Source: Undaria pinnatifida (Eukaryota > Sar > Phaeophyceae > Laminariales > Alariaceae). From it: a DNA stretch of 64,000 bases. Shown here one piece after another: positions 1,463 through 63,332 of the stretch; position 1 is the first letter of the stretch; each line of letters begins with the position of its first letter. The notes under the pieces are model-generated. The model was not told where the DNA came from. It worked only from the letters and a program-made list of their open reading frames with translations, and searched no databases. A program made the translations under genes and the position numbers. The stretch covers positions 2,761,501-2,825,500 of the forward strand of contig JABAKD010000002.1 of NCBI GenBank assembly GCA_012845835.1, in the 5' to 3' direction.

Positions 1463-1524
1463 TTCGGTCTTTCTGAATTTTCTCTCTCTGTATTCTTCAT
1501 TCCGAGAGCCATTCTGTTTTATTA

Positions 1525-21875: not shown

Positions 21876-23110
21876 CTCACATTAACTCTTGTCAAACATC
21901 TAGAGTCCGTGGTCACACAAAGGTGCTGGAGCCATAGGAAGATCCGAAAATCCAAGTGAAATCAAAATTCGTCAAGAAAATACTACGCTTTCCCGCCTAA
22001 AAACGCACGACACGGAAAAAGGCGCACAAGTGAAAAGGTCAAATGTGCCAACTAAACTCACATGGCCGCGGGTATTCACTCAACTACAGCATAGAGTTCC
22101 CCCGTCCCCACAACTAACCAACTCGCGGCTACAAACTATAGCGGTTGGGCTGCCTGCACCGTACGAACCGCACGGTAATCGTGAGTACAGACGAACGCCC
22201 CTGCTGTCTGGAGTGCTGTCAGAGTGACGACCCGCGGGCATGCAGTGAAACAAGAGCAATGGAACCAAAAACCACCGTACAGATATCAATGATCGCCCCT
22301 CCTTCCCGAGGTATTTGACAGGTTGCAGCGCAGCTACGACGCCCGTGCCTGAAAATTGAAAATTGCGGCGGGTCGTTCCCCGTGAAGGGTATACAACTCT
22401 TCTACAAACTCTACAAAAATCAGAGACGTAAGTAACATGTTGTACTACTGCCTCGTAAAAATAACGCTAAAAAAAAAAGACGATCGCTGCTCTCATGATG
22501 ATGATGTGCGTGCCGGTCGTGGGTCTCCGTGTGCCGTCCTCCTGCTGTGGTTCTCCGTCGCCGCCTCATCGCCTTAGCTCAGTCGGCCAGCTCCTTCGCA
22601 CTTGCTCTCGTTCACACTCAATTCCTGTCGGTTCCCCTTCTCCCCCGTCCAAAAAAAACAAAATGCTCCACGCAGTTTGCGGTGCTGATCTGAAAAACAA
22701 AATTATCGTTTAGGGAGAGTTCAATCCGTCTCTTCCCCGCCCGTCGACGGCCAGTCGCCCTCCTCCTTATTCTTCGAATCCAGCCTCCTGCCGGCGCAGT
22801 TCCCTCCACGCAAACCGAGACTGCGCCGTAGCGTGGCTCGTGGTGGCGCCTGCCTCCGCGCACGAGCATCCCGATTAAGCATTGCTGCTCCGCCGCTGCT
22901 GCCTAAAACGACGCGCGAATCGTAGGTGACCATGCCTAACGCACCACGTACGACCCAACTCTACCGCCACGCCTAAGCCTCGCGGCCACACGCAGCAGCA
23001 AGGAGGTATCACTCCTTGAGGGTGAGTCCGGCCTTACACCCGCCAGAAAGACCCCCCCACTCTCGCTACAGGCCGCAGCATGCCGTACCGAGGCGGCAAG
23101 GGAGAACGAA
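21876..23110 (-). repeat. 1.2-kb dispersed repeat, copy B (inverted)
   Basis: Reverse-complement match of copy A, including the region outside copy C's left end (TTGCCGCCTCGGTA...GGCATGCTGC). Copies A and B are therefore longer at that end than C. The boundary with the LINE at 23.1 kb is approximate. Confidence 0.85.
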
Positions 23111-29600: not shown

Positions 29601-30040
29601 AAGTTGGGGGGACTACCGTAGAGTGACCCTGACCACTTGCGAAAAGTATACCAATACCCGCGTAACTTCTCAACAAACCTAAGCCTTATAACACGTTGCT
29701 AAATGATATTCGGACCAGGTTAGCGCTTAGTAGGTTTCTGGTCGTATTGCGACCCGGTCTCAGGTATACCTTCACGCATCGACATGCTTCAAATAATTCG
29801 TGTATGTTTTGAGGGCGCTGCATCATCATGGTTCATGGTGCATGGCCTGTTTTGTTGTCTCTGATATACTCCGGCATGGATATTTTCAGGCCAACCGAAA
29901 TGAGCATATACATTGCTGTGCGAGCTGTTATAAAGAGTATTCATGGTATCATGTGGGGGTCGAAACGACTGGATCGAATATTCAGGCAGACCAGATGAAA
30001 TAAACACCCCGAACGACGATCGAATGAATGCACGTCGACA
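29601..30040. other. No recognisable gene
   Basis: Unassigned DNA up to the GTT microsatellite. Confidence 0.4.
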
Positions 30041-30045
30041 TCACA

Positions 30046-30280
<235 letters not shown>

Positions 30281-30478
30281 TTTCTACATTAACCCTTTTA
30301 GAACCCACTAAAAAATCGTTAAAAAAATATCAAACCTAAAATTAAAAATAAATGAATGAAGCTCATTGGGGCAAAGTCGGGCCGCGTGCAGCGAAAGGAC
30401 CTGCGAAGCGCACGGCCAAACATAAATCGGCGAAACAAATTTTGTATAGAAAATAACTCCCCAAAACCTGGTTCCAGG

Positions 30479-38575: not shown

Positions 38576-38761
38576 GAGTTTCTTGAGACGAAATATGAGA
38601 CTTCTCTGTCCCCTGATGGGTTCCTCACTCCACCAGCCTTACACTAAGCTGCGCGTGTCTTCGGACAAAAGCTGGGAGCTTCTCAGTCCCGGTGTGCTTC
38701 CCTTACCCCACTCCCTGATACCCTCGCGTTGGCGGGTGGCTTCAACGCAAGGCTGATGACG

Positions 38762-38929
38762 ATGTCGAAGAAACCAAGAACGAAGACAACTGTTGTTGTT
38801 GCGCTGTTTACGGCTCTGGTGTCGGCGCAGACGTTTGCACAAACGATATATAGCGTGGCTGACTGCACCGAGCTCGACGCCCTGCCGTCCATAACCACCG
38901 ATGCCGTCGTCGACTTCACTGCATCACCG
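38762..38929 (+). CDS. Exon 1 of the beta-helix gene: signal peptide and N-terminal module start
   Basis: ATG 38762 opens MSKKPRTKTTVVVALFTALV, a basic start and a hydrophobic core ending near SAQTFAQ. This is a textbook secretory signal with cleavage likely after the last Ala. The mature start continues TIYSVADCTELDALPSI and DAVVDFTASP and stops at a GTATGT donor in phase 0. The next in-phase exon starts ISCDSNTNFRV only 6.6 kb away. An upstream in-frame TTG at 38729 was not used because this ATG gives the better signal peptide. Confidence 0.82.
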
Positions 38930-44900: not shown

Positions 44901-47900
44901 TCCGGTGTTTCGAATTACTTTCGCGGTCAAGCTAACCATATGTATTTCTATTGTTTCTTGCGATATCACGATATGTCCCTCCATGGTTTTAGCTGGCGTC
45001 GTCAGCACTAGACCATACATTATAGTCTATGTCCGTTGTTAGAACGAGTTACGGACCTACTCGCGCGTGTGGCATAAATTCAGTGACGACATGGCGTGTA
45101 CCCCCTCTGCCGTGACCTGGATCGCCCGTTTTTCATTTTTGCAGAAATTTACCCAGGTATACTGATTTCAAAGTAATTTGGCAGTTTTACACGAGCTGCT
45201 GGTTGTGTTCCAGGACACACCCAGCGTATTTCAGAGGGTTTCCACTCTATCTGAAGATATACATCATCCATTTTGACTGTAGCAGAGACAACTGCCTTTT
45301 TACCGTATGTCTTATTAGTAGTGGTCTGTTTGGGGACAAGGCACTTTTCGTCACAGATTTTGTGTCACAATGAAAAGAAGCCGTACCTCGTCAGCATGTA
45401 TTCCGGCTGCTTATGATCATATTTGTTTTTAGGCCACACCCTTCTGTCTTCAATATCTAAGGTATGCGTCAAACTGCTCCCGCCGCAATGTTTTTGCCGC
45501 CGTGCAGATCTCATGTGATAGCAACACAAACTTCAGGGTTACACAGGACAGCACGTTGGAGTTAACGTCATCTCTGGAGGAGTTGAAACTGGTTAACGTT
45601 CGCCTCAGTGTGGCTTCGGGCTCATCATTGGTGGTGTCTGCGCCAAACCTTGAGTGGCAAAGCGAGGAAACCAGAGAGGTACGTTTGGTTATGTATACGT
45701 AAAGCAGGCTGCACACAGATTAAGTTTCATTCGTTCACGGCAGTCAAGATAACTGGACTATTCTTGCGGCTGGCGACACCGACGTTGCATACAAACCTCT
45801 CTTAAGTTAATCATTCTCAGATCGATGCTGGTTGCGAGTTTTTGGTGAGCAATACGCAGCTCTACAAGTAGCCCGACGAACACGCAACTGACGTATGCCC
45901 GTGGTGACAACATGCCCTCGAAGAGAACACGGATACAAGGAGAGAGCAGCCTGCCTTGTACCTGGTACTCTGTTGAAGTACAGCTCTGACAGGGCAACTG
46001 GTAGTTGTGTTCGGTACCACGTCGGCCGGCACGCCAACAGTAAAAGTCGTCAAGTACACGTTCTGCAGCGAAGACCTACTTGACACCTGTGTGCTGTGCT
46101 GTATTCTGTTCTCGAAGAATCTACTGTTCAACGACTGTTGTGTTGCTGATGCTGCATAATGTATAGTTTCCACGCACAGATTGAGCTGCCCCACCCGCCC
46201 CACCTCCGCCCCAACACCCCCCCCTATGATAAACTGGTGCATACAAACCGTCAGGTTTATCCCCTTAAAGGGTTTAAAGATTGGACGCACAAATGCCCCC
46301 TCCCCCCCTCCCCCCCTCTAACCCCGCTCGCGTTTGATCAAAATCGGCCCCCACGTCCTTCAACTCCGCCCCCCCCTCACCGGTTATTCGACTTACAGGA
46401 TTCACTTGATAAACGGATACATATCCCTCCAAAGCTGTCGGATTTGGTTCCCCTCAGAAACGGGTATTATTGTTTCTGCGCACAGACTGACTAACATCAC
46501 CCTGTTGACCCTGATAGCTACACTGCTGTAGCTGTAAGGGGAATCGACGACCTAGATCCTTAATGAGGACACACAACCCGTAATACACGCGATCGGAGTA
46601 TCACACACAGCTTGCAAAGATGAGTTTCGACGAAATCTTCGATCTCACATCTGGAGTGTGTTTACATTTTTTATAATATACCTGGTATTGCTATAAAAAT
46701 ATATCTACCGCACTAAAGCGGTGTAAACAGCGATATAGGTATACTTGGAGAATCCGAAACAGCTGCGGGAAACGCCGAATCGTCACTATCAACGAATATG
46801 CAGGGCCGGTCGGCAGTCCCTCACCCTAAGTTCGGTACAGCCTGGCCCAAACAAACACGTCGAAACGAGGGGTTGACAGGCTGTGCTACCGTTGTATAGG
46901 CCTGACACACACCGGCATCATTGAAACAGACTACAGCAGTGTACGTTCAGCGGTAGTACTTGTGCTCACGACCACGTGGATCTGGCGGGCATGTAATGCA
47001 ACACTCGTAGGTACTAGAGTATACTACCATCTGACTGATTCTACGATCCCCCCCCCCATACAAGCGAAATTATTTAACGAACGTTTCATGGCTGTTAGAC
47101 ACGATAAATGCTTTGAAAAAAATGTTGTGATGTATTTTTAATTCGCAAGGGACGATGGAAAGATGACGTCGGGATGGCAAGGGGCACCGTATTTCCGGAG
47201 CTTGTTTCAACATCGGCGATTCAGTAAATTTAACGTTGGCGGGGCGACTGTCCAACGACGCGCCTTTAGGGCTGCAGAGGTGGAAGGAACTCGAACAAAA
47301 AAAAACCCAAGTGCAGCACGCGCATGTAAAAAACTGCCTGCGGGCCGTTGAGACTACAGCATCAGCAACACGACACCATCGGGGTCTCTGGGCTAGGGGA
47401 TGTGTCCAATTTAAAATTGTAAGGATCTGCGCGGCACGTGGCCAGCACGGTGACACTCCAACTGGCAAATTATGCGTCACTGGACGGTTGGGAATGCCTC
47501 AACCATCATGGTTTTAGCCTATACTTTGCCTGCGTAGTTCGTACAGCTACGTAATTGTGCCAGCGTCGAATCGCGTCGATTTCCAAAACCCTTCATCCAT
47601 CTCCCACGAGTCTTATCAACGAATACGCATCCATAATGATACTCACGATGCCAGTAGCCAGGGCGCACCGGCTGTCCCCTCTGTAATGCTGAGGAGCTTG
47701 TGTAATTGTTCTCGCTGGTTGCATTCCGGCATCGACCAGGATCGGGTTGGTGCTGCGCTGAGCGTATCCGGCGGGGGGACAGCTACGTTCAACGAGGATG
47801 TCACATTCACCGGGTGCTCCATTGCGGTAAGAGAACAAAATAATGTCCCCGCACTTCACTTACTTCCCTTGATGACAAATTTACGATATGCACGTCTCGA

Positions 47901-50900
47901 CATGCTTTGGCGCTTAGATTCCACGTGCGTGTCTGCCCAACCGTTGGTCTCTGTTTGCGATAAGATGTATGCCACGGGGTGTTTTGCTGTTCTTGTAAGT
48001 TTTGCGTGGCCATGTTGTTGATTCAGAAGAGCCATATGGTGCGCCCCGAGAAATGCTTTGTTTTGGAAAGCTTTTTCTGCTTGCTTGTTGGGATCGGACG
48101 TGCCACTTCTTGGCATATGCTTAGGCCTTATGGTTCGACAGGGATGGGTTGGGTATACCACGCAGTAAGTGCCTTATGAGGGACCGCGTAGTCAGCCTCT
48201 TAGAAACCTCGCGTCTGCCTCGGTGACATTAAACTAGCTGCAGGGGTACCTTTCGGACACAAGTGTTGTTCGAGGACCTTGTAGGGTATAACCAGCCACA
48301 GCTCCAAGGCTTGGCAAGGTGCGAATGGCATGCCGCACGAGCAAAACCAATGACCTCTCTGACGCCACCTCACCAAACCTGTTTCGTCAGGAACAACTAA
48401 ATACCGGGGAGAGCGGCGGAGCTGTCTTCAACAAGGGCACGATCGAGTTCATGAGCGACGCAATGTTCACCGGGACCACTGATGTTAGTATGCGCGTGCG
48501 GGGTTTGTTCGAACGCAGCTTCTTTGATCCAGTCGTGAATACAGGAGCATTCCGTTGAACTAACGCCTTACGCCGAGCAGGAAATATTCCACTTCACCGG
48601 TGTGCGAGTTGAGTTGGTCGAACCAGGGAACCTGGGCAATTCAATAGGGGGAAGGTTACACTCTGCGTTACGGAGTTCACGTTTATTTTTTTTGCGTCCT
48701 TCTCTACTTTTTGATGTTGCAATCCATTGTGTACTCGCCACCGCCGAGAGAACTGCTTGTTAGAGCATGAATGCCTTGCATACTGTGTTTCTGGCCGTAA
48801 AACAAACACCTCAGACAACCGTTGTATGTTGTCAGATATTAGTCCGCGGTATTGCTGTTGAACTAATCGGTTTCCTGAATCTCGTTTGGCCCTCGTTCGC
48901 CGCCCACACTTTCTCGATTTTGGCACTTGCTCAACATTCCCAGGGCGGAGCTATGTACAACTCCGGCAACGTGACGGTGAGCAAACCGCGTACGGTAGAC
49001 CAGAAATATTTGGAGAAGAGGCATGTCACGTATGGGGCGCTCTTCAACTGAGGGGACGCACACATATTCTTCGTAATAGTGTTTGTGCCCATATTTTGTC
49101 GATTCATACCTAGGCCATGCGGGTTTTGCGTGCGGAGCCTTCACCTGATGGCTTGGGATTTCATCAGCGTCGTTCAAAGTTCCCTGTCTTCGGCGTTGGC
49201 CTATTGCAAACATCTACTCTCCCAAGATGCCTAAGGGTTCCGGGCTAGGGGAGCGTTTTTTAGACCCGCAATGGTTGCCATGGGCTCGAGCAAAACAGTC
49301 ACGAACGTGGCACGTGATTACTGTACGTAAACATGTTTACACTGCGAATGCCGTAGTAGGGCTTCCAACATCAGTGCATGTGGCAGCTGGGCCGCAACGT
49401 TGGTCGAGAGAGATGGACTACGGTAGCGGGGTCACTTGAGCAAGTTTCATTGAGCAGTGCCCCGGGGCCAATCGCGCGAGTGGCTTCCCTCTTCCTTTGC
49501 GGCCTTAAGCTTTCGCGCCGTTCTATTCCTGCGACGACGACCCGCACTGGAACGATAATGTACGTTGCGCCAAACACATCATCTGGAGCTTTTTTTGCAG
49601 TTGAAGTACGGAGTCACTCGTGCGAGTGGCGAAACCGCGGGTTCGATACAGGCGGTGCCCCCCCTGCCGTAGCATTGATCGAGAATGCATATCTAAAGTA
49701 CTCGACGTGGTAGTTATTTTCCTACTAGGCTTTGCAACTGAAATCAATGCCAATAATTTATGTTTAACACCCACCGATTGAATCTTGTGTGGGTTTCTTG
49801 TTGCCGTTCCTTCCACGTGCAGTTCTCTGGGGACGCCATCTTCGAAGGCAACAAGAAATCGAACGTAAGCTGATTCTGAAGGCCGGTTCAAGATAAAGTG
49901 TTCAATACCCCCCTTATCCCCCCCCCCCCGAACGCCTCTCCAGTACTGCTGCATTTTGTCACAAAAATATCAGGGCCGGAACAAAATGACGAGAGTAGGT
50001 TACGCCCTCTATCGACAAAAAATTGAGTCGTATCGTTTGTTGTGAAGGTATGCGCGGTGTGGCCGATAGTACCGGTTACTGCAGGTGCACGCTGTCTCTG
50101 GCTCCGCAGTGCTCACTCCCACGAAGATTGCTTTATAGATGGTGACGCTATCTTCTGTATTTGGTCTTGGTCCCCGCCTGATGCCTTGTGAGAAGAAGGG
50201 ATCGGGGTGATCACGTTCAGACCGGCCGTAACACCTTCCGGGAAATAAAGGGATATTGCCGTAAATCGTAGCGCCAAAACTGGAGAGAAGGAGAACTATT
50301 ACACCCTGCCCGACCAATTTTCATGTGGCCGGCAACCAACAATTCCTGCCTCTGTATTGAGCATATGCCAGCCACAGCAACGTTTGTCGCGGGGACATGG
50401 CACAGCGAAATCCACCAAAAGCCGCAAATCGATGGCTAATGTGGCGTCCCGTTATTACACAGCCCGCATGTAATTATGTACGCCTGTACCGCCATTTTTC
50501 AAGCACCTATATTTTAATATAACTTTTTGTGTCACCAGGCCAATGGCGGCGAGTTGTTGAGCAAGTGCACGTCGCACGAAACCAACATCTCGGTTGCGCC
50601 CACTATGTTTGATGATTCGGTTTCTCGCTTCGTAGAGGCTTATCAAGCACAAGACTGTACAGGGATATATAAGCTCGACCGAATTATCTAGAACCCGGGG
50701 AGTTTTCAAGGAATGTCGACCATTTTCGGACATAAACTGGTTCATTGGGATTTGTCGGAATCGTAGATTGTCGACGATTTCCCTGTTGAGTATGGTTCAT
50801 AAAAGAGCGTTGCCCAGGCTTAGACATGACAATGTCCGGGCTAAATACAACAGCTGACCCCCCCCTCATACCGTCTGAATGAACGATACCCAATTCACAT

Positions 50901-53900
50901 TTAAAACCGTGCTTTTCTGGGCTTCGAGTGAAGGAAATATTGGCCGTGCAGTCGATTCTCCTAAATCAGGGCATTTGTGTGCGAATGATTTACGGCAACT
51001 TGGTATACGCCAGCTGGGGTCTGCGTTATTTGACTCCGTGGAAATTTGATCTGATGGACCAAAGAACAAGATGGCAGTAGATATTACTGTTCAATATGAC
51101 CAAGACACCGTTTCGAGTCAAACCCTGGTACACTCACTTCACACTTGTTCCCTACGCCGTGACCCACGCGTGTCGTTCTGTCTTGCTTTTTGTATGTTTC
51201 ATCAGACGTACGCCGGCCAGTCCAGTCCCCTATAAATGGTCAAGCCTTACCTGGGAAATTGCGTTTAGACGTGTCTTGCCATGTACCAGCCCTTACAGTA
51301 TATATCGCGATGCTTCAGCGTTAATCTTGATAAAAAAGTGAAACTATTATCGACTGTTGTTATCGCCTTTTCGCTTTTTGAGTAGTCACGAGTAGTTGTT
51401 GAAAACCTTTCTCCCTAATGCGACCGTTGACCCCACTAGGCGACTGATTGGCGGTCGCTCGTCGTTGTGAGCTGGCGAGGCATGTGCTTCATGTTTCAAT
51501 GCCATATTCTTCCTTCGTCCTGACAGTTGCTCCTGATGGAAAATTGTCGCTGTCGCAGTTGTTTCGTTTCGGCGGCGGTGGCATTTTAACGGAAGACGGA
51601 TTCATCACGTTCAAGAGTTCCGCAAGTTTCGTCGGAAACGAAGCAGAACAGTCTTACGGAGAGAACTCCGTTGGAATCGAGTACGACGGGGGGCAGGGAG
51701 GTGGCTTGCGTGTTGGAAACTATGACCGATTCGCCACCGTTGTGTTTGAGGGCCCATCCTTCTTCGTCGGCAACAAGGCCGCGGTGAGATAAGTCCCTGG
51801 TGTACCGCGTACGCTTTCTATACTCAAAGTGCGTGATGCTCACTAGCCTCGACCGCACGGGGGCGCCCTCTGATGCTTGGAAACGCCGAAAATTGGGACA
51901 CGTTGTTGTACGCTTAATGTTTGCGCAGTGTCTTGGTCCGAGTCGCGGTCGTCACACAGGCAGCGGTAGGGGTCGATAGAGGTAGAACTTTATGGCTATA
52001 TATTTTTCTGAATGGCGCGACTCCTCAAAACCCTAAATCATCGGACGTACACAAGAACATTTTCCTTTGCATGATTCTTGTTGTGTACCTCTCTAGGCCA
52101 TGGGGTTATCATTCTATACTCCAGCTTTATCTTGTCTCCAAATTATATTTTGGTGGCGGAGGTCTTTAAACCTCCACCTCAGAAAAGCCGTGGTGCACCT
52201 CTAACGTAGCACGCGTGACGAAAGAGATGCAGAACTTTTTCTCATAAGATTCCTCAATTTGGGAGATTGAAAAAATAAAAAAATAAAAATGAGAAGAATA
52301 ATGTAACTGCGGTAGAGTATTAAACCCCACGGGCCTAGGTATAGAACAAGAATCAAGGAAAACAAAAATTGACCATATCCGACGATTTTGGGACAAGGAG
52401 ACACGTCATTCATACTTTGTTTTAGACGAAAAGCGCCACCTCTGTCGTATCACCCGACTTTTAGTAGCACGGGGTCTCCTGCGCGCGCTACCCCCTTCGG
52501 CGCCTTTGCGGATATTTAGGTTCCGTGCATTTTTAAGTGGGCGACATGAGCGTTCAACGTGGAATTGTAAGCTACATTCCCCGTTGAAAAACAAGCCAAG
52601 TTAGGTTTGTCCGTGAGTTACAAAGCCACGTGTGCCACTTGTGTTCGAATGCTGACTACACGGTAGTGAAATTAGGAGTAGCTCTCCACGGAAGCGTTAG
52701 TCTTGTATCAACCATTGGCGATAGGGTTTGGAGGATGCCTTCAACGATAGACGGCAGCACCTTTCGGCAAAATAATCTATTTTCAGGACCGCCGGACTCC
52801 TTGCGCAAAATTCGTCAGAATGCTGGTGTTCATTTGTAACATGTGTTTGGGTTGTATCTAGGCCCTCGGGGGCAAAGACGTCGGGTGACGGCACCCTCCA
52901 CGCACTAAAACTAGTATGATAAGTTCCATCACCTTGACGGGTCCAAACTATACCGTCAACCGACATCTTTGCTCGTGGGGTCGTGCATCGAATTAGGATT
53001 TTGTTTTCCCACCATCAAAATGTGGGCGTGGAGCGTGTGTAGAGTTCCTCATGTCACACATCTCAGAAAGTGGTTGGTGCAACAATACCGTAGTATGTTA
53101 CATAAGGAGTATCCACGGTCTCCGGTAGGGCGATCTACCCCTGTTTACTGACCTGCAGGTACGACCCAGATTCGTAATTCCCCATTCGTCAATCGTGCAC
53201 GGTAAGCCGATTTCCGTCGGTTTTCATTCAATAGGATGGCGTTCCGAGGTTGATGCTCGACGAAATGGTTCTTTTTCAACCCCCACCCCTCTCCCATCCC
53301 GCTACCGCTCCATCGCCCTGTCTGGTGAATATCAATAGGAGGGAGCTGGTCTGTACTCCTACAGAGACGACCCATTACCTTCTAGTTCGGTCATTTTTGA
53401 AGGTCTCGCGACGTTCGAGGACAACGTGGCTACGGTGAGAGCGCCTTTCCTTTCTCTTTCCAAAGTGCGGTTGTTTTTGCATTTGCAATGAAACGCATGC
53501 TACGACAGAGGTATCACTTTTAGTGTGAACTGTTTTCTGAATGGGGCGGGCTACTTGATCAAAAATAGTCATAGAAAAAAGAAGATAATAGGCCGTTTTA
53601 TTTGGCATGATTCCCCTTGTGTACCTAGGCCATGGAGTTTTCATCCGTGGTTGCATTATTTTTTTGTCCAAAATCAGTGTTTGGGAGAGGTCTTTAGCTC
53701 CCAGATTGAGGAATCGCAAGAACAATAGCGGTGCGCCCCTATCGCAGCACGCGTCAAATGGCTTGGTTTTAGTGTGGGCAACATAACGACCGCTGTGTAT
53801 GCTGATACGCTGTTGCGACGTACTTGTTGATTCATGGAAGGCCCGGGCGACGGCTTGGGGGTCGCTGTTGGAGCGTTTTTTTTTTGGGTGGGTCGCGGGC

Positions 53901-56900
53901 TCACTCGCGCGGGTGGTCCCCCTGTTCCTTCGAGGTATTCACATTTCGTCTTGTTGCTTTTTTGGCCACATGACACCACCATGGACTGGTTAGCTACGCT
54001 CCGCCAACCTGATCGCCTGAGTCATTCTTAGTAGTGAGGTGCAGGATCGCTGAGGCGAGTGGCCCGAAGTGGGAAGCGAAAAAGAGGGCATGATTCTACA
54101 ATACCGTAGTGTTTTTCGGAAATATCAACATATGGCTGAGATTTGATGATGATGCCGTCATGACCGTGACAATTACGACAGCAGGTCCGCATCAGCATGA
54201 ACATAGCACTGTTGGTTTTTACTTCCCCTCAGCTTGTTGGCGACTGTCAACTACATGCCATAATGTCTTTATGGACGTGATTTCGCAGAAGCGATATAGG
54301 ATCCTCTCACCTTGCCCGGGCGTTTACTTTGCGCCGGATTTAATCATCGCGAGCATCAATAACCGTTGCATTTCTAGGCCATTCCCGAGCGATGCTTACC
54401 TAGCATAGTTGCGCCCCGCCGCGGCGTACTGGGAGACGGTGACCCGGCCATGGCTGGAATGGTTTCGTAAGCAGTCTTCCAGCCCAAAGAGGAGTGCCCA
54501 TCTGAAAACGTCTGTAATAGTTGATATATATCGAAGCATGCAGTTACCGTAAAGAGCGTCGCTGGAGGGGAAGTGATGTCCCACAGGAGGTCACAAAATT
54601 GTTCAGTGAGTTTTGTGCAATAAGTAGGCATGATTCTGCTTGCCAGCGCTTGCGTCAAAACTTCAGACATGTTTGGGGTTAGTTATCACTTGATAAGCAC
54701 AGCTCAATGTTTCAGTGTCTCCTGCAGTCGATCGCTGTTCGAGCAATTCCAAGCGTGATGGGTTCTTCGTCTCGAAAGTCGCTTGTTCTCGTCACGGCAC
54801 TAGCAATTGATGGTTTTGTGAAGTTTACGGTGTACCTCAGAAAAATATCAACATTTTCATTCGAACATTGTTGATCACGTTTTCTCCCGCAATCTGTGCT
54901 TACCGCAAACCTTGAACGTGCGTACCACAGTCCGTTGGCGACGCCTCCGGAGGGGGTGCCGTGGCAGTACGCGAAAGCAACGTGGCGTTCCAAGGAGGCA
55001 TTGTCGCCACTGGAAACGTTGCAAAGGATGGTGGCGTCCTCAAGCTGCTGTCGAGGTGAGATACGCAGCGTTGTCAACGCACCGATACTAGCGCGGCTAC
55101 AACCCTCATTGTTCAAGAGGCTACAACAAGAGGGTTACCCTCAGTTTTACCATGGGGTGTGAGGTATCATTTCATAATCGCACTATTGCCGCCTTACCTA
55201 ACCGACGAAAATGCTGTAGGCGAGTTCTTGGCGCACCATAGATTGCCATTACATTGCGCATTCAAGTGGAGTAGCTAAACAATCCCTGATTATTAAGAAG
55301 GCAAAAAAACAAGTGAGTCACTCGTGAGATCTACCCCGAGCAATTGGAGCAAAATACCACTAAACGCGTCTAGCCCACCGGAGCCACGGCAAATTGTTTC
55401 TCTTGAAACGACTGATAGTGCACACATTACGGATCAACCCCGGTATAACTGCATCTATTTTCTCGTGAAACTCTGTCGAACCCACCTGGCAGTTACGCCG
55501 TGATCAACATTGACGGCCCGGTGACGATGACCGGCAACGAGGCGCGCTACCAGGGCGGCGCCGTTTGGAACGCCGGGGTTATGACGATACCTCAGGACGC
55601 CGACATTTCCGGAAACACGGCCCCCTTGGTAAATACCCGTAACGCATTACGCGTCCTGCCGTGTTTGACGATAAGAATGCGTATTTCCGTCATCCACGGG
55701 TCGAAACGTATGCGCCTATCAGGCGAAACTCCAAAGGTTGTGCTTTGTCTGAATCATGTTACTGTTACCAAACCGCTAAAAACCATGTCGTGGCCCACAT
55801 CGATTCCCCACCTAATTTTCTTGCTGACCCTCTCCGGGTCAAACGAAACCCACTCAAAAGTGTCCGGGAATCAAGAACTTCGAAGACTGGGAACGGGATT
55901 TGCCCATTTATAGCAGAAGCTGGAGTGAACCGGACGGTTCTGTGGAGTTCACCGGTGGTGGGTCCACGTTTTCAGGCAGCTCCGTCGACCTATGTTATCT
56001 GGGGGAAAATGTCGGCACAGATCCGGACTTTCAGTTGACGATTGATGCCGATGCGGCCGATTGTGACGCGCTGTTTGGAGAAGGGACGACGCTAGGCGGT
56101 TACTCGGTTTTGACTTGGGACACAAGGGTGGTATCCGAGGTCAACTTTGCGGTCGGTTCAGGCGACACGTTCGACGTAACATGCGCCAACCAGTCGGTGA
56201 GTGCACACAAGGACGCACACGTGTGGCATGCGCTCAACTTCGTCAGTTCTCTCTCTCCTTCGTTGCCCAGACGATGGTTATTAACGTGGGGGGCATACGC
56301 TTGCGAAGAGCGGGAAGAGCGTGAACAAACTGCGTTAGCGTTTCGAACATTAAGCACATAGTGAGGAAGCACAAGCGCGGGGACATGACTGCATACCATT
56401 GACGACGAGAGACAAAATCGCACAGCATTGTAACAGACACACCGGCACCACGGTGTGCTGTTATCTTCTACCTCGTCAGATTATCTTTGTCACGGGAGGT
56501 GGCGACTTGACCATCACATCTTCGACCGACGAAATAGTGTTCTCCAACATCCGCTTCGAGATTGGCGGCTACTCCAACCTCTACTTCGACGTGGTAGACC
56601 TGACCATGACGGGCATCACAAGCTCGGTGAGAGGGATTCCACGTTGTGCAATTCGTACAAAAAATAGCGATACGTCTATGCTCTAATAATGTGCCCGGAT
56701 GCGTTCCGGGATGTTTTGGATTATATCTGGCAGTAGTGTGGGCAAAAGGAGAAACTAAATATTGTCGCGCTGGTTGATGATTTCAGCCGGAAACAACGGA
56801 AATCTTGAGTAAAAAAAAGAAAAAGTGATGCAGTACGCAGGGCTGTTCTCAGCAAGAGCTTGGGGTGTGTGAGTGCATGTGGCGTCCTGAGAAGTGCGTC

Positions 56901-59900
56901 GAGCGACATAGTTCGCAAGAAATTTGCTAAAGTTGCCCATTAGAATTAGTTTAGGCACGTCGACCGCATGCACGCCTCCCTCTTCCCAGCCATTCGTCCT
57001 AATCCAAGATGGGACAGGATTATATTTTCACTACATGGAACCTGTGACAACCACCATGCAGTGTTGCTTAATAGACGTAACCTGGATGGTACACGGGGTC
57101 TTTTTGTTTTTGTGTTTTATAAAGTGGTACCTGCCGAAAATCCTTCGCATATTCCTTGTGCGCGATGACTCGGCGAACTTGTGACGCAGCCGATCGGGGG
57201 CTCTACGCATGTGGACAAGGGTAGCTCCATGGAGTTCTGGGGGGACGTCAGCTTCCTCGGCAACACGCTCGCCTACCTCACGGACGCTGCCTGGGTGAGA
57301 TTCGAAGCATACGTGCTGGCGGTACCATTTCCAGAGATAGCGGCCTGTATGGTTGGGTTTGCCATCTACTGCAGCACCGTGTAATATGGTTTATGATACT
57401 AAACAAGCTGCCGCTGGCGACCACCACAATGGTTTAGTCCATCCCATCGTTCGCATACACCTGCTATTTTGACGTTGGGTATTTTATCAAGACATACGTT
57501 ACCTTGCCATACTCTCCGAGAGCACGAAACCGGCATTCTGAACAGTGCCACGATTGCCTTCTTTGAACTCACCAATATCTTGCGTCGTAACTTGGTTTGC
57601 GGTCGGAAAATGTAATCCGTCATCTTCGCACGGACAATCTAAATGCACTGCGTCACAAAATCCGCTCCGTCCGCAGAACGAGTACGGCGGAGCTTGCGTG
57701 TTTAACGCTGGGCTTGTCAAATTCCGCGGAACATCATACTTCAGATCCAACGGACAGTTCGAACTGGATGGGCTGTACTCATATAATCCGCCTGGTGGCG
57801 CGATCCTGAACGTCGGCGACATGGAGGTGAGTCGCTTGGCGGGGAATAGTATCGTCGTGCACCTAACCCATGTGTCGACATGCTGGTCCATGCGAACAGG
57901 AGACTGCCGTGAAGCGGTTTGTCACTGTTGGTAGCAGGAGCACCTATGAAGCGCATGCCTTATGTCTAGGGTAAAAACGATCTGCTGAGTTCCGCGTCGC
58001 ATTCGCAGATCGTCCTCTTACGGTGCCAGTGGGTGCCAACGCCGTCATGCTAGTGCATGCAAACAAGAGGCGGCCTTGCGAGATCTTATCACCTTCAGTA
58101 GCCAGAACGCCTAAGAAGCGCATGCCATATATCTGTGATAACAATGCTCATGCTGGATAACGTGTCGTTTTCTCGAAGCGTCCTCTTACGCTGCCGGTGG
58201 GTATGACAATGCAGGCCATCTTATCGACGACGTTTTTGTGTGTGACGCGTTCTTGTTGTAGTTCGAACGCAAATCGAAGTTCTGGTACAACTTCAACCTT
58301 CGCGGTGGCAACGGAGGCGGCATCGCCAACAGTGGACAACTTCAGTTTCACTACCGGACTGTCTGGCGCAAGTGAGCACGAAGCTTTGATATTCTTGGTG
58401 GGCAATTAAGATGGTACCACATGGCCATGAGATGGGCTGGTCGTAATCGGTAGGGCACTGCTGTGGACTGACGTACTCACACCGCACACTATATACCCTG
58501 TATTTTTTATGCTGAACGACAGCGTATCTCCCGAGCACGATCGCTCAAGGTTTTATTCCAGGTAATATCGTTCCACGTCGAATTCTCCGGTGTCAGAGGT
58601 TGAAGGTATCGCCAGACGTTCACACATGCTGTTGCGACCTGTATCTTGCGCCAAGAATCGATTGGGTCGCTGTTGTCAAAGTTGAAAATTGAACATGTTT
58701 TTGTAGATTGCATACTTGAGTTTCTGCATCTACTGCATATTAGGGGGACGAACACATTCGTCGTGAGGGTTGTGCCGTTTTCACATTAATCTATGCATGT
58801 GAGACGACAAACATGTTAACCCCGCCGCCTCAACCCCAGATATAGTGGTACATAGATTTCCGATATCATTACATTTCATCATTTCTGGCGACCTTAGTCC
58901 CTAGCTGACGTCTTCACATACTAAAATGTATACTCTCGCAAACGAACGGAAACGGTACGATAATGTAGGTAGAATAGCTGTGGTTGCGCAAACAAGAACC
59001 ACTACGGAGTGTTTGTTTACCACGTCTGCAGAATGCAACCTCGACTCATGTCCTTTCATGTATGGTAGCCGAACTTGAATGGAAGGTGGTTGACCTGCAG
59101 TGGCGGCGCATACTTCTTTCAACTGTGTCCAACCTACGTTCCGCCACCAACATGTCCTCCTTGGATTCATCCTCAACAACGCAGCAACCTTGTGGACGAC
59201 CGCAACGAGGAAGAAGGCCCGTCGATTTTCGGCGGACATGGGGCCGCCTTGTACAACTTTGGACCTGTCGCGACTACCCACTTCATGAGCAAGGCAACGT
59301 TCCGGGACAACACGGGCGGGTTTGTGAGTCCACTGTTTAGACCGCGCCCCGCAGTTTTGGTGTTGGCGACCGGGCTTCTTTCTCTTTGTGTTTGCGTAAC
59401 AACCGTTGTGAATCATAACGTGGCCGCCTGAGTAAACGAAAATCGGTCACACCCCGGGCAGCTAAGGAATTCGTACGCGGAGTACGTGGGACGAGTCATT
59501 CCACATTAGGGACGTGAAGCAGATTCTAAGAATTTTCTGAGCTCCTAACGTGGAGGGCTTAATATCTCACCATCACCCGAAACATGACCTCAAAGACACT
59601 TATTTACGAAACCAGACCACCGCTTGCAGGCGCTAGTCCTAAGACGGATATAGTGGTGAAGTTACAAAACTAACCGTCACTAACCGTTAGGGCCACACCG
59701 GAGGAGTTCCACCCCCCGGCAAGAAACGCTTGCCTAGAAAGTGCAACACCCCAACCCCGAGATGACTTGTTCATCGTAAACGTCTCTGTTGGAAGGCCCG
59801 TTTTTGTTTTATCAGTCTTCCATATGCACGCGAGCGATATTTTTCGCCATCAAATATGAATGCATCTCAACTCTCTGTTCGTTTGTGGTGACTCGGTTTT

Positions 59901-62900
59901 CAGCGAGGTGCTGCTGTGGCCGCCAACGGAGACCGCGGCGGCTCAGACTCAACTGCTGAGAACGCCAACAAGATCACCTTCGGGCACAAGACGTACTTCA
60001 AAGACAACGGCTTTGACGTGCGTATACTTCCTTGGCTCGAGCAAACAGCAGAGGGTTGGTGGGGACGACATGTCCGCTTGGTTGGGCTTCAACATGTATC
60101 AGTAACGTCAAGTACAGTGCGAAATTGGTCCGTCAAACCACATTGAGTTTCGGCGACATTTACGTTTCCTCACATGCTACGCTGTGGGACCTCTGAATGA
60201 ATAGCGTTCAGTATGGCCACAGTAGTGACAATTTTACTTTGAACTTTACCACACAGTAACAGCTCCATAGGCGCCTTTCAGGGAGTGAGCTTTTACGTGT
60301 TGTTGATCCGATGCTGAATTGTTAACTTTTGTTACCTCCGGAACATTGAAATTAGTGCTTCGCCTGGTTGTCAATATTCCGGAACAATGCTTCGGTAGCG
60401 GGGTTATGTTGTTTTACCCCCTTTTGACCACACTTCGTTTTTTCATTGGCTCGATGTCACTCGCGCAAGTGACCCCCCTGTTCCTTGCGGCCACAGGGGT
60501 TCTTTCGTGCTGCTGTTTTAACATTCTCGATATTGATACGAAAAGGGATGGTTAGCTACGCTGCAAGAAAAAAATGGCCGAACGTTCATTTTGTCAGTGA
60601 GGTATAGTCACTCTTCCGAGTATGGCATGGCATGGCATGATAGCTCAGGCCCGGTGATGGAAATTGGGGGTACCCCCCTACCGTAGCCCTGATCCCCGGT
60701 ATGATGGTTGAACAAACCCCAGGCACCGGTAGGGGGTTACGTTGTTGCGGGGTCGTGTTCTGCGTTGCGCGGGGTCACTCCCGCGAGTAAACCCTCTTTT
60801 CCTCGAGTGTCTTACGTCTTCTTGACGTTTTAGCTTGACGAAATCAAGCCGCAATAGAATCGTTATCTTCGATGCGCCATAATAATCGCCTATGATGGCA
60901 TGATAGCATGATGGCATGATAGTGACCCCCCCCTCTACTGCCTCTAAATCCGCACGGCGCCGAGACAAGGTGCTTTAAGGAAATCGGATGAAAGCCTGCT
61001 CGTTGCACACCCAAAGATGTATTACGAAATGAGAAAAAGAAAATCACGACCAGTGACATGTTTGAAGGCCATGGTGCTCGATACGGGCTACATTTACATT
61101 GCTCAGCGGTGATTAAATGCGCATTGACCTTTCTTCGTCTCAGCGGTGCGAACACGGCATAAACATTTCCCCGTGTAGAACATACAGATGTTAATTTTAA
61201 CGCATACAAGATGCGAGTTGACGAGGGTCGTACTGACTGGAGTCTGAATCGTTCCGGACCGCTAGGATACTCGCCCGGACAACGGCGGCGCCGGATTGTG
61301 GGTTTTCAAAAACGCGACGGTCGAGTTCGAGGACAGGGTCGTGTTCAGGTTGGTCTCGTTCCGGATATTATTCGAAGAGTATGTTAAACCTGGTGTCACG
61401 TGTTACGTAGGTGTAGTCATAGAGCCGTCAACATGCTTTGGCAGCCGAAGAAATGTTTTATAGTCTGACTAGCAACGTTTGATTATCGTCACGTCGTAAT
61501 GTTTGCGGAGATACAGAATATGCCATCAGCAGAGATCATCACTTTTTCTTCCTGTCTTCCGTTGATATTTTTTTGCATCTTTCGCACGCTACACTGGTTT
61601 AAACCATGAGCGCTTGAGTCATCCGAACAGCTGATTTTTCTGAGTTATCATTAAGGGTTCAATATGTCACACGACACGACTTTGAAGGCGTTCCCCCGCT
61701 GAAGCCGATTAACACTTCTTGGCGCTACGGTATTTCTTTAATAGATGACCTCGTCAAGTTTTCATACTTTCCGATAGTGCCGCAATGGTTGAGGAGCTCA
61801 ACCGGTCAGAAGCGTTTGGATAAAAACGTACAACCCATACCCTTGCGATGATTCGTTTGCATGTTCTTCGCACGAAAGGACTTCGAACCTAACATTTGCC
61901 TGTGATAATTGCTTCTATTGAGCCCATGGCGTTTCAAGGTGCTCGCTCGATCGATTCTTCGTGTGTTATAATAAACAGAAATCCATTGTTCTAATATTTC
62001 GTGGGTTAGCACAAAATCAACCTGTATATCACCGTAGCGGATATAGGCTTTACCTCTTTTAAAAAAGTCAACCTGACATGGACTACCAACCAGCACCTCC
62101 CCGGGCTGCCCCTTGTGGTCAGCCCGTGCACATGGCGATGAGATAGAGATATCTACTAAGTCGTACACCTATCACTTACAAACGAGAGACACCCACCGCG
62201 CAAGAGCGATCAGCCTTTGTTGTTCCAAGGGTTTTCGCTGAGATGCCTTCTCCACCAAATTTGTTGCCGATGAACACAGGACCACGACCCGATGTAGCGA
62301 AACACGGTTGCGAGCGCAATCTACTGTAGTATCATCGCACAAGGGATAGCGATGTGGTGATGCTCTATCAAAATGTTCGGAAGATTCTTTGAGTATTTGG
62401 CCTTCACATCTTCGTTCTTACTCTGTTTCGGCGGCAGGCGGAACGAGGGCGCCAACGGCGGTGCCATCATTAACGGTGGCGGTTTCATCAAGTTTGCGGC
62501 CGCCGATCTCGTTAGTATGATCGACAACGTTGCCCTGGAAACGGTGAGTCGTTCTGATCATTTCTTCGCTTGAGCTGTTGGTCGTGATGATGCTTAAAGG
62601 CAACTGTACAGTGAGGGGGTGGCATGTGGCAAGGGTTTGGCGTTTCTCGTTGCTCGCTTAACCAGGGGGGTAAGACGCGTGCGACGAGAGACGTAGCATT
62701 TTTCGCCTGAAATTGTTCGTGGATGGTGGTCCTGAACTCAATATCGTCTAGAATAAAACGTCATTTTTGTTTTTCATGATTCTCGCTGTGTACCTAGGCC
62801 ATGGGATGTTTCGTCCGATGCAGTTTTTTTTTTTTTTTCAAGTAAGTTGTGTGGAGACGTCTTATTCGCCCAAGTTGAGGATTCTCAGAGAAAAAAAGGG

Positions 62901-63332
62901 TGCATTACTATCGTACCACGCGTCTGTACTCGAGTTCATCAAAACCAACCCCAGTGTTTATCATCAACTATTGTGCTCTCAAAGCCTCCTTCGTTCTGGT
63001 GCTAGTCTATACCTCTAGAATGCGAATAGTTGGCACCCTCCATAGTATCGCCCCCTGCACAAGCCGGTTTCGAAGACACAGCACTCGTGGGCATCCCAAC
63101 TCGTTGTGACCTCCATCATGAATGTGGTTCGCTGGTGTTTCGCCCACAGTGCCCCGACATCAAGAACTACGACACAGAAACCCACTCTCATGAGGACGGC
63201 TTCGGCGACATCGACGATCCAACAGGGGAGTGCGGGTCGTCAGGCGACCTCTGCACCTGGTTCGAAGGCGAAGTCACAATCGGCAGTGCTGACCCCATCG
63301 TGGGAGAGACGCCTGATATTTGCGAGTTTTGA
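38762..63332 (+). CDS. Secreted beta-helix / polymorphic-outer-membrane-like repeat protein, 20-exon gene
   Basis: Model exons: 38762-38929, 45508-45678, 47740-47826, 48391-48483, 48944-48976, 49823-49864, 51559-51783, 53339-53434, 54931-55055, 55493-55628, 55861-56196, 56480-56626, 57190-57294, 57677-57826, 58262-58371, 59101-59323, 59904-60017, 61266-61348, 62438-62543, 63030-63332. All introns are GT-AG, donors mostly GTGAGN or GTAAGN. Phase agrees at every junction (16 phase 0, three phase 2). About 950 residues. Residues 1-27 form a signal peptide. Many exons encode one or two coils with a Gly-Gly-Ala/Gly turn and a VxFxG or ATFxxN strand, as in right-handed beta-helix proteins. No membrane anchor is seen. 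It is probably an extracellular or wall protein; Ectocarpus has large families of this type, some annotated as imm-upregulated (from memory, unverified). Least certain: starts of exons 7, 11 and 20. Confidence 0.8.
40020..40590 (-). repeat. (GTT)n-ended dispersed repeat, copy 2 (unsplit)
   Basis: Matches 20105-20199 plus 20973-21400 and lacks the hAT element. Nine GTT units at 40019-40044 are the inverted (AAC)n tail. A purine-rich AAAGAAAAG tract runs from 40360 to 40535. Confidence 0.75.
40594..41797 (+). repeat. 1.2-kb dispersed repeat, copy C
   Basis: Direct orientation, adjoining the preceding repeat. It starts at GGGGTCTTTCTGGCGGGTGT and ends in TGTGAGAAAACAACAAACAA. It is shorter than A and B at the left end. 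Confidence 0.85.
41840..43210 (+). repeat. Composite repeat with ATGAGTTTCGAC modules, copy 2 (tandem)
   Basis: Several tandem modules; the MSFDKIFD-type frame starts at 42599 and 43063 and a decayed one lies at about 43140. Poly-C tracts recur at 41890, 42187 and 42270. Confidence 0.75.
43590..44830 (+). repeat. Diverged, tandem relatives of the foldback-element arm
   Basis: Two direct, degraded copies of arm sequence (about 43590-43990 and 44080-44830). Matches include GAGGGAGTACYGCTG, CGCAGTCGAAA-like, GTTGGTGGC and ATACACGCTGCTSGCG, and a TTTTCGACTGG stretch at 44665-44730. The copies are much more diverged than the two arms at 25.9-28.5 kb are from each other. Confidence 0.6.
45050..45122. 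repeat. Remnant of a 268-bp-MITE relative
   Basis: GTACCCCCTCTGCCGTGACC at 45098 matches one MITE end, with CTACTCGCGCGTGTGGC upstream. Confidence 0.4.
45508..45678 (+). CDS. Exon 2 of the beta-helix gene: N-terminal capping module
   Basis: 57 codons, phase 0 at both ends. Reads ISCDSNTNFRVTQDSTLELT, SSLEELKLVNVRLSV and SGSSLVVSAPNLEW. The alternation of small and hydrophobic residues suits beta strands. The same pattern recurs in exon 12 (56480-56626), with VTGGGDLTITSS and EIVFSNIRFEI aligned to it. Confidence 0.8.
46150..46690 (+). repeat. Composite repeat with ATGAGTTTCGAC module, copy 3
   Basis: In intron 2 of the beta-helix gene. Ends with GATGAGTTTCGACGAAATCT and TTACATTTTTTATAATAT. 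Confidence 0.75.
47031..47240 (+). repeat. 208-bp dispersed repeat, copy 2
   Basis: Partner of 29393-29600; in intron 2 of the beta-helix gene. Confidence 0.55.
47740..49864 (+). CDS. Exons 3-6 of the beta-helix gene: short coil exons
   Basis: Exon 3 (47740-47826) gives ALSVSGGGTATFNEDVTFTG. Exon 4 (48391-48483) gives ESGGAVFNKGTIEFMSDAMF. Exon 5 (48944-48976) gives only GGAMYNSGNVT. Exon 6 (49823-49864) gives FSGDAIFEGNKKSN. All begin and end in phase 0. Joined, they read as regular coils of about 25-30 residues. Exons 5 and 6 together make a single coil. Confidence 0.8.
49414..49680. mobile_element. Degenerate relative of the 268-bp MITE (267 bp)
   Basis: Starts near GACTACGGTAGCGGGGTCAC and ends CCCCCCCTGCCGTAGC, with an internal CTCGTGCGAG palindrome. 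Length matches the family. In intron 5 of the beta-helix gene. Confidence 0.65.
51559..51783 (+). CDS. Exon 7 of the beta-helix gene: long two-coil exon
   Basis: 75 codons, phase 0, from a GTCGCAG acceptor to GCG|GTGAGA. Contains GGGGILTEDGFITFKSSASF, VGNEAEQSYGENSVGIEYDG and VVFEGPSFFVGNKAA. The first four residues (LFRF) fit the coil pattern poorly, so the true acceptor could be slightly downstream. Confidence 0.75.
52000..52215 (+). repeat. ACCTAGGCCATG repeat, copy in intron 7
   Basis: TTTTCTGAATGGCG, GTGTACCTCTCTAGGCCATG, GGAGGTCTTTAAACCTCC and ACGTAGCACGCG match the family. The core here has a 3-base insertion. Confidence 0.65.
53339..53434 (+). CDS. Exon 8 of the beta-helix gene
   Basis: 32 codons after ATATCAATAG, phase 0: EGAGLYSYRDDPLPSSSVIF then EGLATFEDNVAT, then GTGAGA. 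Confidence 0.72.
53520..53755 (+). repeat. ACCTAGGCCATG repeat, copy in intron 8
   Basis: GTTTTCTGAATGGGGCG, TTGTGTACCTAGGCCATG, GAGAGGTCTTTAGCTCCCAG and CCTATCGCAGCACGCG. Confidence 0.65.
53850..54090. repeat. Degenerate MITE relative in intron 8
   Basis: GGCTCACTCGCGCGGGTGGT and CCCCTGTTCCTTCGAGG match the 49.4 and 60.4 kb relatives. The ends are eroded. Confidence 0.45.
54931..55628 (+). CDS. Exons 9 and 10 of the beta-helix gene, joined in phase 2
   Basis: Exon 9 (54931-55055) reads SVGDASGGGAVAVRESNVAF and DGGVLKLLS and ends after two bases of a codon. Exon 10 (55493-55628) supplies the third base and continues YAVINIDGPVTMTGNEARYQ and GGAVWNAGVMTI. The matched split codon (Ser) is good evidence for the junction. 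Confidence 0.82.
55861..56626 (+). CDS. Exons 11 and 12: second copy of the N-terminal-type module
   Basis: Exon 11 (to 56196) contains SVDLCYLGENVGTDPDFQLT, ADAADCDALFGEGTTLGGYS and FAVGSGDTFDVTCANQS. Exon 12 (56480-56626) contains FVTGGGDLTITSSTDEIVFS and NIRFEIGGYSNLYFDVVDL. Order and phase mirror exons 1-2. The start of exon 11 is uncertain: 55861 gives phase 0, whereas the nearer AG at 55916 gives the wrong phase. Confidence 0.72.
57190..57826 (+). CDS. Exons 13 and 14 of the beta-helix gene
   Basis: Exon 13 (57190-57294): PIGGSTHVDKGSSMEFWGDV and SFLGNTLAYLTDAAW. Exon 14 (57677-57826): NEYGGACVFNAGLVKFRGTS and NPPGGAILNVGDME. Phase 0 throughout, GTGAGA and GTGAGT donors. Confidence 0.8.
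58262..60017 (+). CDS. Exons 15-17 of the beta-helix gene
   Basis: Exon 15 (58262-58371) ends RTVWR plus AA; exon 16 (59101-59323) adds T to make Asn and continues GGAYFFQLCPTYVPPPTCPP, restoring the NGG turn across the junction. Exon 16 also has a Pro/Cys-rich insert, then FGGHGAALYNFGPVATTHFM. Exon 17 (59904-60017) reads RGAAVAANGDRGGSDSTAEN and KITFGHKTYFKDNGFD. Confidence 0.82.
60385..60694. mobile_element. Degenerate MITE relative in intron 17
   Basis: CTTCGGTAGCGGGGTTATG at one end and GGGGGTACCCCCCTACCGTA at the other, with CACTCGCGCAAGTG inside. A short ATGGCATGGC repeat is present. Confidence 0.6.
60715..60935. repeat. Second MITE-like fragment in intron 17
   Basis: CACCGGTAGGGGGTTACG, GGGGTCACTCCCGCGAGTAA and a TTGACGAAATCAAGCCGCAA segment resembling the MITE interior. 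Ends in GATGGCATGATAG repeats. Confidence 0.5.
61266..62543 (+). CDS. Exons 18 and 19 of the beta-helix gene, joined in phase 2
   Basis: Exon 18 (61266-61348): DTRPDNGGAGLWVFKNATVE then FEDRVVF plus AG. Exon 19 (62438-62543): G completes Arg, then RNEGANGGAIINGGGFIKF and DNVALET. The pair reads as two regular coils. Confidence 0.82.
62700..62930 (+). repeat. ACCTAGGCCATG repeat, copy in intron 19
   Basis: CATGATTCTCGCTGTGTACC, TAGGCCATGGGATG, a poly-T middle, GAGACGTCTTATTCG and TATCGTACCACGCG. Confidence 0.65.
63030..63332 (+). CDS. Exon 20 of the beta-helix gene: C-terminus
   Basis: Ends at TGA 63330-63332. Reads GIPTRCDLHHECGSLVFRPQ, ETHSHEDGFGDIDDPTGECG and SSGDLCTWFEGEVTIGSADP, then ETPDICEF. 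Cys- and acid-rich, with no hydrophobic tail, so secreted rather than anchored. The acceptor is the least sure: GCGAATAG at 63029 gives phase 0 but a poor pyrimidine tract. Confidence 0.68.
   Translation: MAPSIVSPPAQAGFEDTALVGIPTRCDLHHECGSLVFRPQCPDIKNYDTETHSHEDGFGDIDDPTGECGSSGDLCTWFEGEVTIGSADPIVGETPDICEF

Follow-up and report, generated by a model that had tools for sequence, protein, structure and literature searches.

Does a gene in which many exons encode one or two coils of a repeat protein, and most introns are of a single phase, serve for the production of variable proteins, or does it preserve the history of the protein itself? The question is raised by a gene (hereafter W) lying in the 64,000-nucleotide stretch of the Undaria pinnatifida genome analyzed in this work (the window). 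The original prediction regarded it as a secreted beta-helix gene whose exons could easily be shuffled, gained, lost or skipped. The comparison of W with its paralogues suggests a different scenario, in which the gene reads as the record of an ancient coil duplication and not as a machine for making variable proteins.

Gene Model and Exon Organization

The predicted gene spans positions 38756-63332 of the forward strand, where 20 exons separated by 19 GT-AG introns are joined into a single stop-free protein of 884 amino acids. The twenty-exon structure proposed from the sequence of the window was borne out, since the exon set, as established by comparison with six paralogues of the same genome (P2, P3, P4, P5, P6 and P7), was recovered in them with the exception of three exons; on this comparative basis, we consider the model confirmed. 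The start is placed slightly further upstream: the first ATG is at 38756, and 38762 corresponds to the next in-frame ATG. The stop is at 63332. Exon borders were picked by hand, guided by the conservation with the paralogues, and two further exon candidates (48581-48616 and about 50539) were discarded, being without conservation in P2 or P3.

The predicted protein opens with a segment resembling a signal peptide and contains about 17 coils of the kind known from chlamydial Pmp proteins (GGA...FxxN), together with two caps that contain Cys. It is arranged in two domains, A (E2-E11) and B (E12-E20), with all exons on the forward strand. E1 (38756..38929) carries the start codon, the signal-peptide-like segment and the beginning of the N-cap, and ends in phase 0. 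The N-terminal part of domain A is encoded by E2 (45508..45678), which is homologous to E12 (similarity E 1.8e-6). Coils 1 and 2 correspond to E3 (47740..47826) and E4 (48391..48483), respectively, both conserved in the paralogues, while coil 3 is split between E5 (48944..48976; first half) and E6 (49823..49864; second half), which measure 33 and 42 nt, respectively, in all seven copies. Coils 4 and 5 share E7 (51559..51783), also conserved in the paralogues, and coil 6 lies in E8 (53339..53434), whose loop is longer than in the P4-P7 equivalents. E9 (54931..55055; phase 0 in, 2 out) embeds coil 7 and the start of coil 8, the remainder of which is found with coil 9 in E10 (55493..55628; phase 2 in, 0 out). 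The domain is closed by E11 (55861..56196), coding for the cap CPGIKN, which resembles that of E20, and for the linker to domain B. This second domain begins with its N-terminal part in E12 (56480..56626), followed by coil 10 (E13, 57190..57294), by coil 11 and the first half of coil 12 (E14, 57677..57826, with a GC donor in P2 and P3) and by the rest of coil 12 with coil 13 (E15, 58262..58371; phase 0 in, 2 out). Coils 14, 15, 16 and 17 are encoded by E16 (59185..59323; phase 2 in, 0 out), E17 (59904..60017), E18 (61266..61348; phase 0 in, 2 out) and E19 (62438..62543; phase 2 in, 0 out), respectively, and E20 (63150..63332) embeds the C-terminal Cys-containing cap CPDIKN and the stop codon.

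A Colinear Paralogue Family

Over the seven copies (W plus six paralogues), 137 of the 140 possible exons were located, always in the same order. Concerning the remaining three, E2 of P3 falls inside a run of 5,000 N, at the edge of which its last 7 bases align; E1 of P4, the only copy for which this exon is missing, was not found in the 10.9 kb upstream; and E20 of P7, of which no more than CPDIEN is visible close to where the available sequence ends, lies outside the modelled set. The joined exons are without stop in all seven copies, and the stop follows ...ICEF in E20 of W, P2, P3, P4, P5 and P6 (E20 of P7 being left unmodelled). The paralogue search enforced AG/GT borders, open frames and the phases of W, so that in the paralogues these features are partly due to construction; the tblastn positions and the near-equal lengths are less dependent on such constraints.

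For 135 of the 137 modelled exons, the best match is the exon bearing the same number in another copy. Moreover, 968 of the 969 exon-like matches fall in modelled exons and the remaining one lies on the opposite strand, so that, in the sequence examined, a search by similarity disclosed no spare coil exon. The comparison of paralogues for exon gain and loss, which started from the exons of W, returned a constant exon number and order across the seven copies, and no reordering of repeat exons was seen. The exon order thus looks fixed over the family rather than shuffled.

Domain Duplication and Intron Phase

The alignment of the profiles of domains A and B covers 339 columns (27% identity, E 3.3e-25), which shows that W consists of two homologous domains. 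Five intron pairs are exact or one residue off between them (E2/3-E12/13, E5/6-E14/15, E7/8-E16/17, E8/9-E17/18 and E10/11-E19/20). Introns E3/4 and E13/14 have the same phase and are 6-7 columns from each other within a single inter-coil loop; introns E9/10 and E18/19 fall at an alignment gap, both in phase 2.

Phase 0 was observed in 16 of the 19 introns (p 0.0022 versus an assumed background of 50%), and in 10 of 12 when the positions common to both domains are counted once (p 0.019, same assumed background); no published intron-phase background for brown algae was found in literature listings. Of 13 cases, 8 place the intron between coils, where 27% of the residues lie (p 0.009), and five of eight do so if counted once over both domains (p 0.038), with coil borders drawn by eye when the exons were already known. 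Since five intron positions agree within one residue between the domains, the regular phase pattern is partly inherited from the duplication of the domain en bloc. This case shows that a tidy phase pattern can represent inheritance, and not selection for exon shuffling. As for the idea that single exons might be skipped without frame damage, it holds for the phase-symmetric exons (12 of the 18 internal ones) and fails for E9, E10, E15, E16, E18 and E19, which are 0/2 or 2/0.

Based on these data, we consider it likely that W belongs to a small nuclear family encoding secreted proteins, each built of two right-handed beta-helix domains that resemble the chlamydial Pmp passenger, and that this family arose through the duplication of coils, of a domain and of genes. 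According to this model, the duplication of coils would have given rise to one multi-exon domain, which would then have been duplicated as a whole, introns included, into domains A and B; afterwards, the gene would have been copied to at least seven loci. From then on, the exon order has remained constant, with substitutions and codon-size loop indels occurring within exons under purifying selection, and the stretch of the cap/linker exon E11 has been homogenized via gene conversion. W represents a checkable case of a long repeat protein grown by coil duplication and then by whole-domain duplication in an independently multicellular lineage.

Selection and Gene Conversion

In all of the nine pairs measured out of the 21 possible, whole-gene dN/dS ranges from 0.14 to 0.31 (0.26-0.29 in the four pairs including W), and no exon exhibits dN > dS between W and P2. 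At the whole-gene scale, these ratios indicate purifying selection on the coding sequence. In the comparisons with W, E7 shows above-average divergence from both P2 (p 0.0019) and P3 (p 0.0004).

The sole clear exchange is a gene-conversion tract of about 390 bp over E11 (55814..56200, approximate borders, forward strand), which W has in common with the P2/P3 lineage. Among codons for the same residue, 1 of 105 (W versus P2) and 0 of 107 (W versus P3) differ in this exon, compared with 24% and 23%, respectively, over the whole gene. A 1.1-kb stretch of intron 1, 92% like intron 1 of P2, was rejected as a second tract because it is a dispersed repeat, other copies of which are present in the window at 17642-18804 and 21857-23055 (92% and 95% like the intron 1 stretch). 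Low dS values between W and P2 were also observed for E15 (0.09) and E13 (0.18); conversion is not claimed for either, as E15 (p 0.0096 versus P2) is no outlier versus P3 and E13 is no outlier at all.

Fold, Secretion and Possible Function

The beta-helix fold is suggested by sequence motifs. The Pmp core pattern GGA[ILV]-x(14,18)-FxxN, taken from PMC11166332, occurs with at most one mismatch 7-8 times per protein in all seven copies, versus shuffle means of 0.17-0.31; in its strict form, it is found in three of the seven and is absent from W. FxxN alone occurs 10 times in W, a count that the highest-scoring of 1,000 shuffles also reaches. Of five copies scanned with the Pmp family PF02415, four have a match when E values up to 10 are admitted (the best being E 1.7e-4), with W scoring below the cut-off (E 6.9; 7.7 bits versus 20.6), and a genome search with the same family gave no match at E 0.001 among the 150 of 196 candidates scored. 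Neither the sequence search (E up to 1) nor the profile search (E up to 5) disclosed a relative in the PDB, and two short peptide patterns, scanned once against each collection, led to no confirmed bacterial, archaeal or viral relative. AlphaFold models of single exons are of low confidence (E7, all-beta, pLDDT 56.9; E11, pLDDT 40.4); a Foldseek comparison of the E7 model with the PDB gave no match at E 0.001, a result that is meaningless at that model confidence.

All six copies with E1 carry a hydrophobic N-terminal stretch, even though in P7, by a crude hydropathy measure, another stretch is more hydrophobic (1.39 at the start versus 1.51 at residue 456). The protein is probably secreted. 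The description of W as a repeat protein of beta-helix style, probably secreted and encoded mostly by phase-0 exons, of which many correspond to one or two coils, is supported, whereas its use for variable proteins through exon shuffling is not. Its most likely role is that of a rigid scaffold outside the cell, or of an adhesion protein, in the cell wall or on the surface, in which the Cys-containing caps would close each helix and the exposed loops would make contacts. We give this role an even chance; it is a guess from the fold, because the protein revealed neither a sugar-binding nor a membrane feature. As neither Pfam nor NCBIfam has a model that scored the W protein at E up to 1, its family is a candidate for unexplained kelp proteins of the matrix or the surface; a limited survey of the open literature (titles and abstract openings) revealed no recognizable publication on it.

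Alternative Explanations

Alternative splicing of symmetric coil exons, or their shuffling from copy to copy, might yield many surface variants, as proposed for the LRR exons of ROCO genes in brown algae. The dominance of phase 0 and the symmetry of two thirds of the internal exons fit this idea, for which PMC11378527 offers a precedent in brown algae (72-bp phase-2 LRR exons, several splice forms and four positively selected sites). We find it rather unlikely for W, however, in view of the invariant exon number and order, the lack of a spare coil exon among the 969 matches, a dN/dS far below 1 and a phase-0 excess that falls to 10/12 after allowing for the domain duplication.

Parallel beta-helices are frequent among carbohydrate-active enzymes, and a protein probably secreted into a polysaccharide matrix might be one of them, e.g., a lyase or epimerase with wall polysaccharides as its substrate. 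Nevertheless, no enzyme match emerged from Pfam, NCBIfam or the PDB, and of the 241 columns that do not vary in five copies, 134 hold Gly, Asn, Phe or Ala, as predicted for coil residues, so we judge an enzymatic activity quite improbable. It is more doubtful still that some copies, perhaps W itself, are in decay and yield no protein. An in-frame stop does interrupt an E17-like piece of a related stretch on C56, and the GC donor of E14 in P2 and P3 and the missing E1 of P4 might be viewed in the same way; yet W retains all 20 exons and reads through 884 codons without a stop, and dN/dS in the four pairs including it is 0.26-0.29. The duplication of coils, of a domain and of genes thus remains the explanation that we prefer.

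Comparison with Known Systems

As in the passenger domain of the chlamydial Pmp proteins (PF02415), each coil of W has a GGA(I,L,V)-like turn separated by 14-18 residues from an FxxN-like turn, and the coils form a long stack. Unlike Pmp, W is eukaryotic, is split into 20 exons and consists of two domains with Cys-containing caps, and its PF02415 score is weak or none. No autotransporter barrel was recognized past the last cap, where the protein comprises 60 residues from the start of CPDIKN to its end, and no autotransporter model matched W at E up to 1. One may imagine the family as the eukaryotic multi-exon counterpart of the bacterial Pmp adhesins, with coil exons spliced in varied combinations according to tissue or attack, caps like E11 kept uniform by conversion and variation confined to coils, but we hold this to be very improbable.

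For the ROCO genes of brown algae, PMC11378527, in which Zambounis 2012 is cited, reports one LRR per exon, uniform 72-bp phase-2 units, shuffling, splice forms and positive selection. W resembles them, so far as they are described there, in its repeat-coding exons, in the introns of one dominant phase and in the brown algal host, and differs in that its exons range from 33 to 336 nt, their order is fixed and selection is purifying. By description, and not by sequence, W can also be likened to the wall adhesins of Candida glabrata, which, according to the title of PMC8746771, are eukaryotic, wall-associated beta-helix proteins.

Gene Structure and Distribution of the Copies

The gene under study (W, positions 38756-63332 of the forward strand of the window) lies in a stretch whose GC content is 45-55% per 2 kb, a value of 50.14% being given in the description of the published Undaria pinnatifida assembly (PMC7058681). 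Its 20 exons (E1-E20), derived from exon-by-exon matches and from the inspection of the exon borders in the copies, are separated by 19 GT-AG introns and join to 2,655 nt (stop codon included) encoding 884 amino acids; the twenty-exon gene of the original prediction is thus confirmed, with borders guided by the copies.

A 40-amino-acid piece of E10 matched seven places in the genome searched (511,146,479 bases, 68 contigs), that is, W and six paralogues (P2-P7). P2 and P3 are located on the same contig as W (C26), the three genes spanning about 225 kb; P4, P5, and P6 lie at 0.50-0.66 Mb of this contig and P7 on another one (C33). The search for paralogous exons, which required AG/GT borders, the phases of W, and no stop codon, placed 117 further exons, giving 137 out of 140 across the seven copies. 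The 129 introns with both ends placed (median length 929 nt, range 232-8984) start with GT in 127 cases and with GC in two, and all end with AG, which is partly so by construction. The donor of E14 (57827) is GT in W and GC in both P2 and P3, where it was assigned by hand, the search itself having picked a later GT. The joined proteins of the seven copies (777-887 aa) are stop-free, with P3, P4, and P7 each one exon short.

Using a domain piece of P7 as a query, 30 matches were obtained at E up to 0.1, the seven loci included; the family thus has at least this size. A P7-like relative with E15-E17-like pieces (C56:3380870-3381641, minus strand, L037) carries an in-frame stop in the E17-like piece and is probably a decaying copy; weaker matches fall on C61 and C23.

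Part of intron 1 of W (40594-41794) consists of a dispersed repeat, approximately 1.2 kb long, with 92% likeness to a copy at 17642-18804 and 95% to one at 21857-23055; intron 1 of P2 holds another copy, and the two intronic copies are probably independent insertions. The window also contains a long trinucleotide run (29999-30292; frames poly-Leu, poly-Cys, and poly-Val, other strand poly-Asn and poly-Thr) and, at its start, an open frame (1-447) presumably resembling the terminal part of a polyprotein of the copia type (RNase H-like).

Origin of the Exon Pattern

Domain A (E2-E11) and domain B (E12-E20) show homology over 339 alignment columns (hhalign probability 99.7, E 3.3e-25); six copies entered the profile of each domain, of which five were used, so that the diversity is low. 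Comparisons of individual exons are in line with this (E2-E12, E 1.8e-6; E3-E13, 0.009; E20-E11, 0.011), and similarity also exists among other coil exons, such as E14-E7 (E 6.4e-5). When the introns are projected onto the A-B alignment, five pairs coincide or are a single residue off; introns E3/4 and E13/14 are 6-7 columns apart within an inter-coil loop, E9/10 and E18/19 (both phase 2) lie at an alignment gap, E1/2 and E11/12 are, as judged by eye, about seven residues apart, and no counterpart in the other domain exists for E4/5, E6/7, and E15/16. Since intron positions match between the domains, the regular phase pattern of W is, in part, one pattern that was copied; phase 0 is found in 10 out of 12 positions once the seven shared ones are counted singly. 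At C29:1663678-1664127 (L036:1669-2187; E 3e-13 to P7), another match of the P7 search, about five GGA...FxxN coils run in one open frame without introns, which suggests that one coil per exon is not required for this repeat.

It had been proposed that the phase-symmetrical coil exons are a design for variable proteins via exon shuffling or alternative splicing. For the genomic exons of this one genome, as distinct from RNA splicing, five tests (order, exon identity, clade, spare exons, and selection) say no to a shuffling device. Exon order is colinear among the copies, and 135 of 137 exons have, as their best match elsewhere in the family, an exon carrying the same number; the exceptions are E4 and E5, both in P7, a divergent copy. 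In 111 of 118 tests, even the most distant copy of the same clade was nearer than every copy of the other clade, the seven exceptions (in E5, E6, E8, and E14) having small margins. No spare coil exon was detected by similarity, 968 of 969 exon-like matches (E up to 0.05, in the sequence searched) falling inside modelled exons and the remaining one on the opposite strand. The dN/dS ratio was 0.14-0.31 in nine measured pairs out of 21 possible. The lengths of E4, E8, E11, and E17 separate the two main clades by whole codons, and that of E1 varies, likewise by whole codons, within clades.

Exchange Between Copies

The capping exon E11 is nearly free of silent differences: 24% of same-residue codons differ between W and P2 gene-wide, versus 1/105 in E11 (p 1.2e-11), and 0/107 codons of E11 differ between W and P3 (p 6.8e-13). 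Only in these two pairs, out of 21, did the longest identical run exceed all 5,000 permutations (next lowest p, 0.046 for P4-P5, uncorrected for 21 tests). The high identity covers about 55814-56200, ending shortly past E11. Within the other clade, E11 shows no unusual degree of conservation (dS 0.47 vs 0.32 gene-wide for P4-P6, 0.15 vs 0.20 for P5-P6), which speaks against a special constraint on this exon. Since the duplication that separated P2 from P3 is recent (dS 0.038), both tracts probably derive from a single exchange event. Silent differences in E7 (51559-51783) are above the gene average (W-P2, 21/48 same-residue codons, p 0.0019; W-P3, 22/48, p 0.0004).

The Encoded Protein

The architecture of W is far more certain than its function. 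Domain A holds nine of the approximately 17 coils counted and domain B the other eight, with coil borders set by eye; four of the 12 cysteines lie in E11 and four in E20, and three N-glycosylation sequons are present. The most hydrophobic 15-residue stretch starts at residue 13. Considering the probable signal peptide, the stacked-coil repeat, the capping cysteines, and the lack of an enzyme match, an extracellular scaffold or adhesion role may be put on an equal footing with all the alternatives together.

The protein matched nothing in Pfam, NCBIfam, or PDB at E up to 1, a search of PDB chains with a profile of five copies gave no hit up to E 5, and single-exon structure models were poor; for these reasons the beta-helix fold, even though well motivated by the repeat, is considered putative. 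GGA[ILV] occurs five times in W versus 0.23 in shuffles, and FxxN 10 times versus 3.65, the best of 1,000 shuffles equalling 10. A stronger test than either motif alone is the combined core pattern of the chlamydial polymorphic membrane proteins (Pmps), which is absent from W without mismatch and occurs eight times, versus 0.29 in shuffles, with up to one mismatch. In Pmps, for which a beta-helix is predicted, this core pattern is described as marking its coils (PMC11166332).
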